A DNA stretch of 64,000 nt from positions 1,790,207-1,854,206 of the forward strand of contig JABMLP010000010.1 in the NCBI GenBank assembly GCA_013176395.1. The letters run 5' to 3'. Below the pieces are notes generated by a model. The model saw only the letters and a program-made list of their open reading frames with translations. It was not told where the DNA came from and did no database searches. Position numbers and translations under genes: made by a program. Shown piece by piece: positions 13,582 to 25,300 of this stretch; positions within the stretch are counted from its first letter, which is position 1; the number at the start of each line of letters is the position of its first letter. This DNA is from Venturia oleaginea (lineage: Eukaryota > Ascomycota > Dothideomycetes > Venturiales > Venturiaceae).

Positions 13582-16512
13582 ATGCCTCCTTCGACTACCC
13601 CCATGGACGGTGGGATGAGATATACGAAAACAGGTAGACTCAGCAAAGCCCAAAAGGGCGTGCGAGGCGCTCATACTTGTGAATGCGGAAAGGTTAGTCT
13701 TCTTGATCGATTACATTGCATAGTCTCCCGCATCTCATGCATCCTCTGGGCGTGTTACATTGCCCCTGCCGAGTGCCACTCCAGCCTACTCTACGCCCTC
13801 TTCTCCAGAGCACTTAGACTATACTACCTGCAGTACTTGCGCTTTTTTCATCAACATATGAACCTCTTCGCTAACATTCGATAGCAATATTCCCGTGCTG
13901 AGCACCTTCGGTATGCTAACACCTCATGATGTGCATTCTTGTTCACTCCAGCTGAGACTAACCCTCCGTCTAGACGACATCAGCAAAATCATGAGACGCA
14001 CCTATCATGTCACTTCGCATCATGTGGCAAGACCTTTCACCGACAGGATCTGCTGGACAGACACTTCGCCACCAAGCAGTACGCAACTTCTGAAAGTGGC
14101 CACACGTTCGCGACAGCGCTGACACAATCTAGCAACCAAGAGCCAGCCTACCCGCCACGCCGGCGGTCTGATGCCAGCTGTGGCTCCTCGTACACGCAAT
14201 CCGGATCTGTAGATAGCGTGATAGGTATTCTTGCGCCGGTTCAAGCTCCGCCGATAGCTGAACTACCGTATATTCCTGATATACCGGACACTTTCAACCC
14301 TTCAAGGTACAACCAATTCTTCCACCACCATCGACCTTCAGAATCTATTTCTTATTCTTCATTTCCTTCTTCGGATGTCATCTAGTGAGTTCTCGTATTG
14401 TTAGCGTCAATTTTCTCACTCATCAAGATTTTTGCCTCCAAGCTGAGCAAGACTGACCTTTATCAGTGCTACGATCGAACCAAATCCCATGATAATCAAG
14501 CCCGATGGTAGCAGGCCGCCAGTTTCATCAGTCTCAGACTGGCAGCCCAACTGTTTTGAGCCAGGCATTCACCCTCTTCAGCCCTTTCCTTTCTCCGATG
14601 GACAATCTCCAATAACACAAGACCCGGTACTGGATCCGTGGGTCACGGTCCCCGATCACTATCCCTACCAGACCGATCTCGATCAGCTCAGAATTCCATG
14701 TATACATACTGATATCTCCTCTCCTCTTTCCAATTCCACAACGCACATGGCCATGATGCTTCCTGATATGGAGCAAGGACCTTTCCCAACATCCAGCGCA
14801 ACATCTCCTACATCTATGGCTAGCACTGCTCTGCCTACAGCCATCATTCCACAGGACCAAAAGGGTATCCCGTACCCATTGCCGTTCCCTGTGCAGCGCG
14901 TCAAGTATGGAAGCTTGAATCTTGAGGTACCTTTGGAGGACCAGCAGCTCGGCATCTCCTTGAGCTTGAAGACCAAACAGCATTATGTTGAGTCATACTG
15001 GAAGTACTTTCACCCGGTGTTCCCTGTCCTTCACAAGCCCTCTTACCAAGCACAAACACCATGTCCTTTGTTGAGCGCGGCAGTCATGTCTATCGGTGCA
15101 CAATACAACGACGGCCATCTTGCCATGAGCGACTCGCGAATCTTGCACGAAAAACTCCAGGAACTTATTTCCAAAGACAGGTCGACGCTACGGTCAGAGA
15201 ATCGCATCGATTACATGCAAGCCATATTCCTCGTTGAGATGTTTTCGCATTTCAAAACTAAGCGAGCCACTTCTCAGCTGTCAGGGATATTCGACGATGT
15301 CTATAGCCAGCTTGGGAAGCATCACGCAAGCGCTCCGAGACCACATTTGGAAAGTCTTGCAACGGTCGAACCATACACCAGCGAGGATGTCATTCGACGA
15401 CAATGGATGGAATGGATACATCTGCACTCCATGGAGCGTCTGCTCACAGCTTGCTACATCCTTGATGCACAGCAAGCGCTCCTCTTTGCAAGGCCGACCT
15501 TTACAAATGTAGGCATCGGCCTCGATCTTTACATGCCAGCATGTTCGACGCTGTGGGAGGCACCTGTGCATACCAGATGGGCAGACCTGCTTCGTAGTGG
15601 CCCTGCTCCTTTGGTAGATATGTATCAGTTGCTTGACAGCTTAGCGCAGAATAGCAGTCATGAAAAACGGTGCGATCCTTTCCAGTCTGCATGGCTGACT
15701 GCTTGTCATGCGTGCTCGGTCCTTAACCAACAACAAGAAGCCGGTAGTGGAGCGTACGGTCCAGTAACCGCTTCTCATTCTATCTTCGAGGGCATCAACA
15801 TCGCATTACTTGAGCAGGCTCTCTGCCCGCAAGCAGATGTGCTCATATCCCATAACATGGTTCGACTAGCCGCACACTGTCCCACCCGCGCTCTATAGCC
15901 TTAAGTGGCGAGTCTTGGGTGTTCTCACAGCGTCTCTCCTCCGAAGCCCTTCTCGCAGCTGCAGAATTCGAAACTCTTAAGACTGAACTCCGATTATGGA
16001 GCGAGACACTTCACCAACCAACCCTCTGGCCCGCAACCACCGACACAAAAAGTGGTGCCCACGAAGCCCTCCAATGCGCCCTCACCATCATCCGCCTCGC
16101 TCTCGACATGGATACCCGCAACCTAGCATTCGGCGGTGAAATGGCCGTCTTCTATGCCTCCCTTGTCCTCTGGGCCAGCACATTCAGAGCAGTATGTAAA
16201 GCTAAATCAGCAGGGCTGAAATTCGAAGATAACGATACGGCTAAGTTTGCGGCGCCGAGGGCAGAACAGGATGCGAGGTATTTCGTGAGATTGGCTGAGG
16301 CTGATATCAACTCTTCGGATGTTTTTGGTGGGATTCCGCCGGCTGATCGGGTTGACCGGTGGAGGTTTGGTGCTGGTGCTGTGCTGACTTGGAGTGCGTG
16401 GGTAATTGGGGGCGCTGGGATGAGGAGTGGTGGTGCTGGGGAGTTGATGGAAGGAGCTGTGGGTGTGTTGGAGAGACTTGGACGGAGAGGTTGGGTTGGT
16501 GAGTGGTTTTGA
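13582..16512 (+). CDS. C2H2 zinc-finger / fungal-specific transcription factor, frame interrupted once
   Basis: A nuclear regulator. Exons 13582-13692, 13885-13910 (26 nt), 13974-14384 and 14467 onward; donors GTTAGT, GTATGC and GTGAGT. The start MPPSTTPMDGGMRYTKTGRL leads into two C2H2-type fingers, CECGKQYSRAEHLRRHQQNH and CHFASCGKTFHRQDLLDRHF. A long middle domain follows (QQLGISLSLKTKQHYVESYW, YFHPVFPVLHKPSYQA), typical of the Fungal_trans superfamily. The frame ends at 15898 after CPTRAL but continues one frame over as ALSGESWVFSQRLSSEALLA to 16512. One missing T in CTATAGCC near 15893 would restore CPTRALLALSGESW. So either a real single-base deletion or a sequence error. A GTGAGT donor at 16499 may add a short last exon. 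Confidence 0.8.
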
Positions 16513-21336: not shown

Positions 21337-21514
21337 ACCTACATAGCTGCGGGCTAGGGTGTTTTTAAGCCGTATACTTTTCTGAAACGGTAGAATAACC
21401 GCAACTTTACGGTTGCAAAAAAATACAACCGTAAGTTTACTATTAATCTACTGTTTCAGCTAAAGTCTTACAAGTTTACGGTTAAAAACACCTTCACCCC
21501 GCGGCTATGTAGGT
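21337..21514. repeat. 178-bp foldback element (MITE-like)
   Basis: Almost the whole element is two inverted arms of 80-90 bp. It starts ACCTACATAGCTGCGGG and ends CCCGCGGCTATGTAGGT, with inner arms GGTGTTTTTAA and TTACGGTTG mirrored as CAACCGTAA and TTAAAAACACC. No coding capacity. No clear target duplication is visible in the flanks. Confidence 0.7.
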
Positions 21515-21783: not shown

Positions 21784-21947
21784 TTCCGCTTGGTGTAAGT
21801 TGCCTAAAACATCTCTACACAATCGAATATATGCTAACGCTGCTTAGGTAGTTGGTTTATCACGTCGGGCTGTAATTGATACAAACCCCTACTCCTAAGG
21901 AGTAGTTGAATACCTGAAGGTCCCTAGTTCGATTCTGGGAGCGGAGA
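21784..21947 (+). tRNA. tRNA-Tyr (anticodon GTA) with anticodon-loop intron and an extra D-arm insert
   Basis: After removing two inserts a complete cloverleaf remains. The acceptor stem TTCCGCT (21784-21790) pairs with AGCGGAG (21940-21946); discriminator A is at 21947. Anticodon stem TCGGG/CCTGA (21865-21869, 21913-21917), loop starting CTGTAA with anticodon GTA. T-arm CCTAG, TTCGATT, CTGGG (21923-21939). The canonical intron (about 21876-21911), expected in eukaryotic tRNA-Tyr, contains a CTACTC/GAGTAG hairpin. The second insert, 21795-21847, 53 nt, splits the D-arm and the A box. It begins GTAAGT, has GCTAAC and ends TTAG, the signals of a spliceosomal intron here. Without it the A box reads TGGTGTAGTTGG and the D-stem GTG/CAC forms. 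Whether the locus makes tRNA is unknown; the insert may have killed it. Confidence 0.72.
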
Positions 21948-21950
21948 GTC

Positions 21951-21957
21951 TTTTTTT
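21951..21957 (+). terminator. RNA polymerase III T-run
   Basis: Seven T residues starting 4 nt after the tRNA discriminator base, the normal polymerase III stop signal, supporting the 3' end chosen for the tRNA. Confidence 0.75.
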
Positions 21958-22396
21958 GCTGCAAAAGATCTCCTTGGCAAAAATACCAGATCAGGCATCA
22001 ACGAATTTTCCCTTCGCGACCCACAAATTTTCAACCACTCTCTTTTTTTATAATTCATCAGTGTTTCCCTACTCTCGTTGAATTTCAATCTCTGCAACGG
22101 CTCGGGACAGCTAGAGACAGTGGTTTATTCCTCGGAATCCCGTGATATGGACTGTAAATTGAACCTTGTCTCGTTACCTTACGCTCGTTACATACCAGTA
22201 ATACCAGATGTGGGACCTAGGTCCAAGCCGCGCCCGTCGCAGGTCTAGGTATCTATGGGGGTCACTAAAGGCGCCTACGTTTTGCCTTATCCTGTCCTCG
22301 ATTCCTTTCCTGAGCCAAAGTCAGTTACCGTGACTTTCCCATCCATACCTGAGAATCACCTTTACCCTTCAAAGGCCAGACCTTGAGCGCTTAATC

Positions 22397-25300
22397 ATGG
22401 GTCGTTACCGAAAGAACAACAACCGGAGCGACCAGGAGAAGAAGAAATTGAGGGAAAAGACAGACGCCTCTGTTGCGGCTCTGGCTGCTCAACGCGAGAA
22501 AGCTAACCTTGGGCCGAAGTACAACATTAGCATTTCGAAGAAGGTCAACAGTGACCGACAGAAGACTGGTCAGAGTTTCCGAGAGTATGTGAGCTCGGTA
22601 TAGTTCTCGCAACGCTTTGCATATCGCTAACTAAACCTCAGCTGGTGCGAGGACGCAAGACAAATGACACAAGAGCAATCCGACGATACCTGGGTCAAGC
22701 TCTGTGACTCCGATCCAGACGCTATTGACCTTATCAAGAGTTATCTGATTCATTATGTCGATGAGGGTTTCTACTGGAGACCTCAGCTTCGACTTGAAGA
22801 CCAATCTGATGAGGGCGAGCCAAGTGAGCGAGATCTCCTCCAGGACCAAGACGATTCGAACGAGCAGGACTCGGACGAAGACGTGCAGGGTTATAGTAGA
22901 GTACGCACTGTCAACTCACTGTTTACCGTCCTTCGCGAGTGGCAAAATCTGGTGGGCAATGCGGACGACCAATACCTCGCAAAGCGTCGAGCTCGTGTCA
23001 CTGATTGGCGGGAAAGAGAGCACTGGAAATTGAAATATCAAGGTAAAAAGCCACACGGCCATGATGCAGTCTGGGAGGTTACTTCGGTATGTATCATTGC
23101 AACAGTCAAGGTAGGTAAAACTGACTCTGATCTTCAGTGGATATCTACTACGCTTGCGTCTGATAAGGGACTTGCAAAAACTACGCAACATAAGAAAGTC
23201 CAGACGTCGGCCGCAGATCTTGTTATGCTTCTCAACGTCCTCCACGAGCAAGCAGACATGATGGACAGTAGCAGCGCTAAATTACATAGCTGGCATTGTA
23301 AGACGCTGATAGCTGGTATCACCGGCTGTCGGGGTGGGTGTCTCGACAAACTACGCTACAAAGACTTCGAAATCGGGCTTATTCGCGACCGCGCTGATCC
23401 TCAAAGCGGAAGGCTCGAATTAACTTTGACGGTAAGGATACCGAAAATTAAAAAGGGTACGGTTACTACCAACTACGGCCAGCGGTATGTTTTCTCTTGC
23501 GTCTATTCCATTCTACGACTGACACTAATGAAACAGTGCGCTCGAGTTCACGACATTCGTGATGCCTTGTCCTACTACTTGTTTAGTAAGATGGTTCATA
23601 GCTAAAGCACTTGCCGATGAAGCCTTCGAAGACTTCGATTCTATTCACGATATTCTCAATCTCCCTAAGCTTTCAGTCTCCCAGTATATTCCGCTCCGCT
23701 GGAAGGACGAAGTCCAAGATCAGCTTGTTTTCCCAATTTCCGATAGTTATCGTTGGAAACTCTGGCGACGGGTCTGTCGTGTCGCAGGGTATCGTCGTTC
23801 GCCAAAGTACTACTCTATTCGTGTAGGGACTGGCAATAAACTCAATGGTAAGACCCTAAAGCAGCTGTTTTTAACGAGACGACTAACAGTATCAGGCACA
23901 TTGACCGATGCCTCCCGAAACTATGTTATGGATCAGTCCAGCAGAATTTTCGAAAGTTCCTATCAGACTAGCTGCTTGAGTTTCAACCTTGCTAGCCTAA
24001 GCTTAGGCTCGGCATTTGGGGGGGACCCAAAGCTTTTTGAAGATGTCTCAACCCCATCCTTTCAGAGGGTGCCTGGCGCACCTACAGACCTTTCTAAAGC
24101 CGATGAGACTTTAATAGACCAGCATCCGTCTATGAAGTCGCTCTTTCTCCAGAAGACAGCCGCCGCTGGCGAGACTCGGAAACGGATAACTACTCAGATC
24201 TGGAACATGCGAGAACTGCTGTCAGAGCAGCTCCTTGAGAAACGGAGAGCCGAGTTTTTCGCACTTATCGATATCAAGGCTGCGAAAGGCATTCCTATGC
24301 CTCCTGTTATCACAGATGACAGCAAGATGAGCATAACAGAAGAAGCTATTGGCAAGATCCAAAGTAGCTGGCTCCAGACAGGTCAGAATGTTCCAACTGA
24401 TCTTTTTGTCGATCTGCTAGTTGCCAACCTTATCGGGAAGGGGGCTCGTGATACGAGAGTCAAACTACACCAACTAGGTTTTATTGATGATCCCAACAGC
24501 GGAGAAAAACGATTACGGTTTATGGAGCTGAAAAACTTCACTCCATCCGCTGATATTCGGAAAAAGGTTTGTAACACGATGTCTTTTAGGCTACCGACAC
24601 GTCATACTAATTTGTCTTTCAGGTGGAGATCATGAGCTCGTACAAGTGTCTGATATGCGACTACACAGCTGGTACTAAGTCTAACCTTACGAAGCATTAT
24701 CGTTGTGTCCACCTCGAAGCCGGCGAATTTCAAAAAAGGTTTCCGTGTCCGGTTTGTCAAACAATAATCGACCAGGGACCGTCAGCTTGGAGTATCCACG
24801 TCACAACGCATCACGATGACAGACTAGCGCCCCATTTCCCGACTCAGCACCCCTTTAACTGCTCAGAATGTTCGCTGCCATTGTATACCTGGGGCCATGT
24901 CACTGGACACCTCGCTAAAAAACACAAAATCACTAAGCGGTCGATAGGCTCAACCTGTGTATGCGGGTTTGCCGTTGAAGACGAGCCTCACTGGCTTGAG
25001 CACTTGAGGACATCTCACATCGCAAGCAATCCCGAATTGTCAACAGAAGCCTTCAGCCAGGACTTATCTAGGGCCGCGCGCATGGATATCGACAATGACC
25101 TCCTGGTAACGAGAGATGCTATCGAGGTCGATCATCCTTCCATAGATCTACGGACGCCTGTAAATGAGTTTGCAGATCCTGACTTCAACTCAGCGATGGC
25201 AAGACCCATTTCTATTGAAGCCGATGGTATTCTGACGCTCGAGACCGAGCGCGCAGATACTGAGTTCAACTCAGCAATGAACAGTCTTCCTACAGGTCCT

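Follow-up and report, generated by a model that had tools for sequence, protein, structure and literature searches.

Sequence evidence for spliceosomal-type introns in nuclear tRNA genes of Venturia oleaginea

A nuclear tRNA-Tyr gene of Venturia oleaginea is interrupted in its D arm by a 53-nt segment that is very probably a U2-type spliceosomal intron, carried on a Pol III transcript and removed by the spliceosome. It would be one among 18 or more such introns, which interrupt 17 or more nuclear tRNA genes. The sequences argue strongly for spliceosomal introns in tRNA genes; that the interrupted genes are transcribed, their transcripts spliced and the products used, we infer from them. The accepted view is that a protein endonuclease excises nuclear tRNA introns, at position 37/38, and we know of no tRNA that needs the spliceosome. 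Our search of the open-licence literature found no prior report of spliceosomal introns in nuclear tRNA genes; an earlier one may exist.

Results

An intron-like insert in the D arm of tRNA-Tyr

The window, by which we mean the whole 64-kb stretch of DNA that was analysed, contains as it stands no tRNA called by ARAGORN and no Rfam family at gathering score. A sequence-only reading had placed a tRNA-Tyr gene at 21784-21947 and argued that it folds into a cloverleaf only if the 53 nt at 21795-21847 are removed. We found both the coordinates and the argument to be correct: ARAGORN is silent on the unaltered locus, and after the deletion it reports a tRNA-Tyr(gta) whose anticodon loop holds a 36-nt intron at 37/38, the ordinary tRNA-Tyr intron that had also been noticed. 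The splice signals are likewise as described, with GTAAGT at the start of the segment, CTAAC at 21834-21838 and TTAG at the end. The parts of the locus are as follows, with the basis for each in brackets.

21784..21794, + strand: tRNA-Tyr exon 1, positions 1-11, acceptor 5' strand and start of the D stem (sequence, ARAGORN, stem pairing)
21791-21802, + strand: TGGTGTAAGTTG, resembling an A box (sequence)
21795..21847, + strand: 53-nt spliceosomal-type intron at 11/12, interrupting the A box (splice signals, ARAGORN)
21795..21800, + strand: 5' splice site GTAAGT (sequence)
21834..21838, + strand: putative branch site CTAAC; its branch A, at 21837, is 10 nt from the end of the intron (sequence)
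21846..21847, + strand: 3' splice site AG (sequence)
21848..21875, + strand: tRNA-Tyr exon 2, D arm to A37, with the anticodon GTA at 21872-21874 (sequence, ARAGORN)
21876..21911, + strand: ordinary 36-nt tRNA intron in the anticodon loop (ARAGORN)
21912..21947, + strand: tRNA-Tyr exon 3, 3' strand of the anticodon stem to discriminator A73 (sequence, ARAGORN, pairing)
21926-21936, + strand: B-box region AGTTCGATTCT (sequence)
21951..21957, + strand: T7 run just 3' of the tRNA, a Pol III terminator-like tract (sequence)

The 53-nt insert lies at 11/12 and not at 37/38, the canonical position of a tRNA intron. Structure by itself is insufficient to place its border, and among 2250 in-silico deletions of 40-69 nt, 130 yielded a Tyr(gta) call. 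Three of these 130 run from GT to AG (21793-21847, 21795-21847 and 21799-21851), and a GTAAGT donor is present only in 21795-21847. The joined tRNA-Tyr has the anticodon GTA, 7 of 7 acceptor pairs and 5 of 5 T-stem pairs. One of the acceptor pairs is T1-G72, which the sequence-only reading had missed; the interrupted copies on contigs C6 and C4 have C1-G72, the eukaryotic tRNA-Tyr identity pair. Folding of the unspliced start of the gene gave nothing notable.

A self-splicing group I or II intron was considered and rejected. All Rfam families were scanned on the window copy only and gave no match at gathering score, and a group I or II ribozyme core would not fit into inserts of about 50 nt. 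About 270 nt upstream of the tRNA, at 21337-21514, the window also holds a nested imperfect inverted repeat resembling a small non-autonomous transposon; its arms are 43 nt long and 74% complementary.

Copies of tRNA-Tyr and an adjoining mobile element

We searched the 46-Mb genome with the joined tRNA-Tyr and found four copies. Three are interrupted, all at 11/12, on C2 (the contig that holds the window), C6 and C4; a second copy on C6 has no insert and is called by ARAGORN directly. It had been suggested that several intact tRNA-Tyr genes elsewhere, together with the lack of a spliced product, would mark the locus as a pseudogene. The balance is one intact gene against three interrupted ones, and the homology search thus adds two genes in which an insert with matching signals but a different body occupies the site seen in the window. 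The three inserts have GTAAGTTG, CTAAY and AG in common; between these signals the alignment is poor. The likeness between GTAAGTTG and GTAGTTGG at the two junctions, previously read as a sign of local duplication, could alternatively come from an A box kept at the donor.

One element adjoins the 3' ends of all three interrupted genes (window 21951-24635, C4:288724 and C6:1107176). Among the interrupted copies, tRNA-Tyr and element together are 96% and 86% identical over 1.67 kb; the sequences upstream of the three genes are unrelated, and the intact tRNA-Tyr is not flanked by such an element. The first gene of the element matches DUF3435 (E 3.3e-11), which we take to be the captain-type recombinase of Starships, and the 3' end of tRNA-Tyr may be the target site of the element. 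Between C2 and C4 the element is mostly 97-100% alike, as against about 57-65% around the D-arm intron, so the tRNA-Tyr copies look older than the element insertions. No DUF3435-type gene was found beside the other interrupted tRNA loci examined, of which L077 and L079 have short flanks only. A pattern scan for the Tyr D-arm form found none in viral and general contig collections, neither of them a fungal genome collection.

Interrupted tRNA genes across the genome

Our table lists 17 nuclear tRNA genes that are interrupted, by 18 inserts in all; together they represent nine anticodons. The genes came from three sources: (i) overlong Rfam matches, (ii) homology searches for Ser(AGA) and Arg(TCT), and (iii) two pattern searches. 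The Rfam tRNA search of the genome gave 58 matches at E 0.001 and 62 at E 10, and 63 candidates were scored; 15 matches on C38 and two on C58 were excluded as likely organellar, judged by their tRNAs. Grouped by the tRNA positions that they separate, the inserts are these.

11/12: Tyr (three genes), Val(TAC), eMet (two genes)
18/19, in the D loop: Arg(CCG)
52/53: Ser(AGA) (three genes), Ser(GCT) (two genes), Gly(CCC)
53/54: Arg(TCT) (two genes)
57/58, in the T loop: Ser(GCT), Ser(TGA)
Anticodon stem: Ser(GCT) on C15, as the second insert of this gene

The 17 genes belong to 57 nuclear tRNA loci found, a biased sample in which some searches were directed at inserts and only the best candidates were scored. 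By family, inserts interrupt three of four Tyr, three of five Ser(AGA) and two of two Arg(TCT) copies found, and the intact copies found number one for Tyr, two for Ser(AGA), one for Ser(GCT) and one for eMet. Genes interrupted in the D arm escaped both ARAGORN and the Rfam search. Since the Rfam tRNA search also missed intact genes, the intact Tyr for example, absent isotypes carry no meaning.

A further locus, L078 (C45:1547090), resembles an Arg(TCG) tRNA gene and may have an insert in its T loop (GTAGG...CTGAC...AAG); since its 3' exon is not clear, it is not counted among the 17. Two Ser(AGA) genes, one interrupted (L063, on C20) and one intact (L070, on C59), have exon pieces that are 100% identical and flanks that are unrelated, as might result from recent intron gain or loss, or from gene conversion.

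Splice signals and comparison with protein-gene introns

All 18 inserts begin with GT and end with AG. Each could be excised in 2-6 registers giving an identical product, and exactly one of these registers is GT..AG. The motif CTRAY, scored when its A lies 8-20 nt before the end, is present in 17 of 18 inserts, at distances of 9-18 nt; by chance it occurs in 3.6% of stretches drawn at random from the window and in 3.9% of those that run from GT to AG. The single insert that lacks it is the anticodon-stem insert of Ser(GCT) on C15, which also has a TTTT run. CTRAY itself aided the finding of the Val insert, the two Met inserts and the T-arm insert of Ser(GCT) on C15, and it drew attention to the window copy. 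Homology or Rfam, without the motif, led to 12 inserts, and CTRAY is present in all 12 (one of them, Ser(AGA) on C27, was first sighted through the motif pattern and then by homology).

For comparison we used 13 introns from the beta- and alpha-tubulin genes, obtained by spliced alignment; a third tubulin gene, on C23, failed to align (score 22) and was dropped. The donor GTNNG is found in 17 of 18 inserts (the exception, GTACT, is in Ser(AGA) on C20) and in 13 of 13 tubulin introns. All 13 tubulin introns have CTRAY, at 9-19 nt, and their lengths of 48-103 nt compare with 49-89 nt for the inserts. The sequence-only reading had likened the segment to introns of protein genes in the window; the likeness holds for the tubulin introns, and the window's own genes proved too noisy to use. 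ORF-based intron candidates from the window and the loci were noisy, with CTRAY in 21 of 71 against 7 of 63, 10 of 64 and 13 of 60 in controls, and tblastn with four homologues of the window's transcription factor gave at most one plausible intron. Relative to these homologues, the transcription-factor gene (14007-16509) shifts frame at 15895, by a frameshift or a sequence error.

An introner-like family was also rejected. Introner-like elements are introns alike over their whole length, and the 18 inserts and 13 tubulin introns contain no near-identical pair (the best inner pair is 65-70% alike, with gaps). The best alignment score for an intron pair was 8, with shuffles reaching up to 5.5.

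Ectopic introns that the tRNA splicing endonuclease cuts through a bulge-helix-bulge (BHB), as in Cyanidioschyzon or archaea, could in principle account for the inserts. PMC3978253 describes BHB introns at non-canonical positions of tRNAs in Cyanidioschyzon and Crenarchaeota. A loose test gave 3-4 of the 4 central pairs in 12 of 18 inserts versus 45% of random sites, a weak excess; but for the motif proper, two 3-nt bulges around a 4-bp helix, all four pairs were found in 1 of 18 inserts versus 6.7% of random sites. BHB introns have no need of GT, CTRAY and AG, and we regard this explanation as extremely improbable.

Pairing and wear in the joined exons

Left unspliced, 13 of the 17 genes receive no ARAGORN call and four are called, two of them with the expected anticodon. 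With the exons joined, 15 of 17 are called with the expected anticodon. The exceptions are Met on C5, for which the ordinary intron is placed elsewhere, and Ser(GCT) on C15, from which one of two inserts was removed. Pairs are kept at 117 of 119 acceptor positions and 83 of 85 T-stem positions in the joined exons. Between intact and interrupted genes there are paired changes across the insert, in Ser(GCT) at 49-65 (A-T to G-C) and 52-62 (A-T to T-A), and in eMet at 7-66 (A-T to T-A).

Wear is visible in five of the 17 interrupted genes: T1-G72 in the window tRNA-Tyr, A33 in Arg(TCT) on C20, one broken T-stem pair each in Ser(AGA) on C27 and Ser(GCT) on C5, and, in Tyr on C4, a first T4 run only 58 nt downstream. 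Individual interrupted copies, that of the window included, may be weak even if the class works. Such wear, and the intact copies found for four of the tRNAs, favour the view that the introns sit in pseudogenes, dispensable duplicates whose tRNAs are supplied by intact copies. We consider this unlikely: diverged copies have retained their splice signals and stem pairing, with the paired changes across the intron described above, and a dead gene would have no reason to keep CTRAY at its distance from AG.

The Arg(TCT) family also argues against pseudogenes. A DNA search found two Arg(TCT) genes, both interrupted, and both matches end at query position 52. A pattern search returned 27 matches (29 with the reversed pattern) and no intact Arg(TCT) among them, 18 having been judged on matched letters alone. 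The other nine comprise two on C38, one within the intron of Arg(TCT) on C20, one tRNA-Leu, four without an ARAGORN call and one (L066) that is not tRNA-like. If the genome truly has no intact Arg(TCT), at least one codon would be read only through interrupted genes. AGA codons number five in the 6-phosphogluconolactonase gene and zero in the beta-tubulin exon read. The window's 6-phosphogluconolactonase shares 93-94% identity with two records from Venturia inaequalis, a species of a Dothideomycete genus.

Pol III promoter boxes and terminators

The A box comprises positions 8-19 and the B box positions 52-62, as given in PMC3978253, and all inserts except the one in the anticodon stem lie within these spans. 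In the three Tyr copies the donor yields TGGTGTAAGTTG, an A box with one extra letter. At 52/53 the intron's last G takes the place of G52, and the DNA reads GGTTCRA in six of six cases; the two Arg(TCT) genes (53/54) have the DNA B box AGTTCGA, one letter off, giving GGTTCRA in six of the eight inserts at 52/53 or 53/54. In Ser(GCT) on C17 and C15 the DNA reads GGTTCGAATC and the joined RNA has T at position 52. Preservation of the boxes is poorer in Val and Met, in the D-loop case and in both T-loop cases. A run of T4 or longer lies within 100 nt downstream in 16 of 17 genes (T5 or longer in 14 of 17; no control set), and such a run is absent within 17 of 18 introns.

Spliceosomal introns usually occur in Pol II RNA, and the two T-loop inserts split the B box, both of which would suit interrupted loci that are spliced within longer Pol II transcripts and not transcribed by Pol III. 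The downstream T runs, their absence within nearly all introns and the DNA B boxes at 52/53 and 53/54 speak against such transcripts, which we judge very unlikely to be the source of these tRNAs.

U6 and 5S rRNA genes

Seven U6 matches were found in the genome (L093-L098 and L110). An insert was read in all seven, and six have usable splice signals; the ends are GT..AG, with apparent GC..AG in one, and the insert at C2:1122156 is degenerate, with no AG. In L097 and L098 the insert lies inside the Rfam match. In L093-L096 the match is uninterrupted (103-109 nt), the model taking intron letters for the 5' part, and we infer the inserts from a CTTCGG stem-loop farther upstream. These four genes have three different introns, one of them at another site, whose removal gives an identical joined 5' end. 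Across the U6 genes the inserts occupy differing sites, and one copy has two. The 33 genome matches to 5S rRNA include none longer than 121 nt and thus show no inserts by length. Canzler and others reportedly surveyed fungal U6 introns in 2016, as cited in PMC5832005. U6 splicing is known in fission yeast (PMC10484740), so the splicing machinery is able to act on Pol III RNA.

Discussion

The sequence-only reading had left three alternatives, namely that the spliceosome rescues the gene, that the tRNA is made by another route, or that the insert has killed it. Rescue by the spliceosome fits best, given the signals and pairing kept in diverged paralogs, isotypes and sites, the Arg(TCT) genes, and U6. 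We count against it the five worn copies, the anticodon-stem insert on C15, the 4 of 17 genes called unspliced by ARAGORN, the poorer boxes, and the intact Tyr, Ser(AGA), Ser(GCT) and eMet genes.

On this reading, Pol III would transcribe the interrupted tRNA-Tyr gene, and the spliceosome would take the intron out of the precursor, allowing the cloverleaf to fold. The tRNA splicing endonuclease would then cut the 37/38 intron and the ends would be trimmed, as in the known pathway. Intron ends may replace promoter letters: the Tyr donor GTAAGTTG would create the A-box-like stretch, and in the 52/53 class the acceptor AG would complete the B box (AG joined to GTTCRA). With intron ends standing in for promoter letters, transcription need not be lost at intron gain.

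We lean slightly towards a broader proposal, in which protein synthesis in the cytosol of this lineage depends on the spliceosome: the tRNA that decodes AGA, and a share of the tRNAs for Tyr, Ser and Met, would come from Pol III precursors that the U2 spliceosome must splice, some of them then spliced by the endonuclease. Intron ends would double as promoter letters, so that the B box of the DNA need not match the T stem of the RNA. Spliceosomal introns in tRNA genes would tie translation to the spliceosome, add to U6 further Pol III transcripts that are spliced, and mean that gene finders miss working tRNA genes. With intact and interrupted isodecoders side by side in the same genome, it can be tested directly how a structured RNA gains an intron and how a Pol III promoter survives the gain.

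Several known systems resemble these inserts in part. Spliceosomal introns in the rRNA genes of lichen fungi are short, of GT-AG type and in a structural RNA, though not in a tRNA; fungal U3 snoRNA introns are likewise short GT-AG introns in a structural RNA, and U3 is not a tRNA. Canonical nuclear tRNA introns, of which the window tRNA-Tyr also has one (36 nt, anticodon loop), lie at 37/38 and are recognised by structure (PMC3978253), whereas the inserts here lie elsewhere and have GT, CTRAY and AG. The ectopic and permuted tRNA genes of Cyanidioschyzon merolae are similarly interrupted at several sites and missed by ordinary finders, according to PMC3978253, but use a BHB, which is unsupported for the inserts here. 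Also akin are the mRNA-type introns of fungal U6 genes, which are short, spliceosomal and located in a gene transcribed by Pol III, as the tRNA inserts would be. U6 is not a tRNA, however, and its intron is thought, in the literature, to come from reverse splicing near the catalytic letters of U6, whereas the tRNA inserts hit many isotypes and sites, at the promoter boxes.
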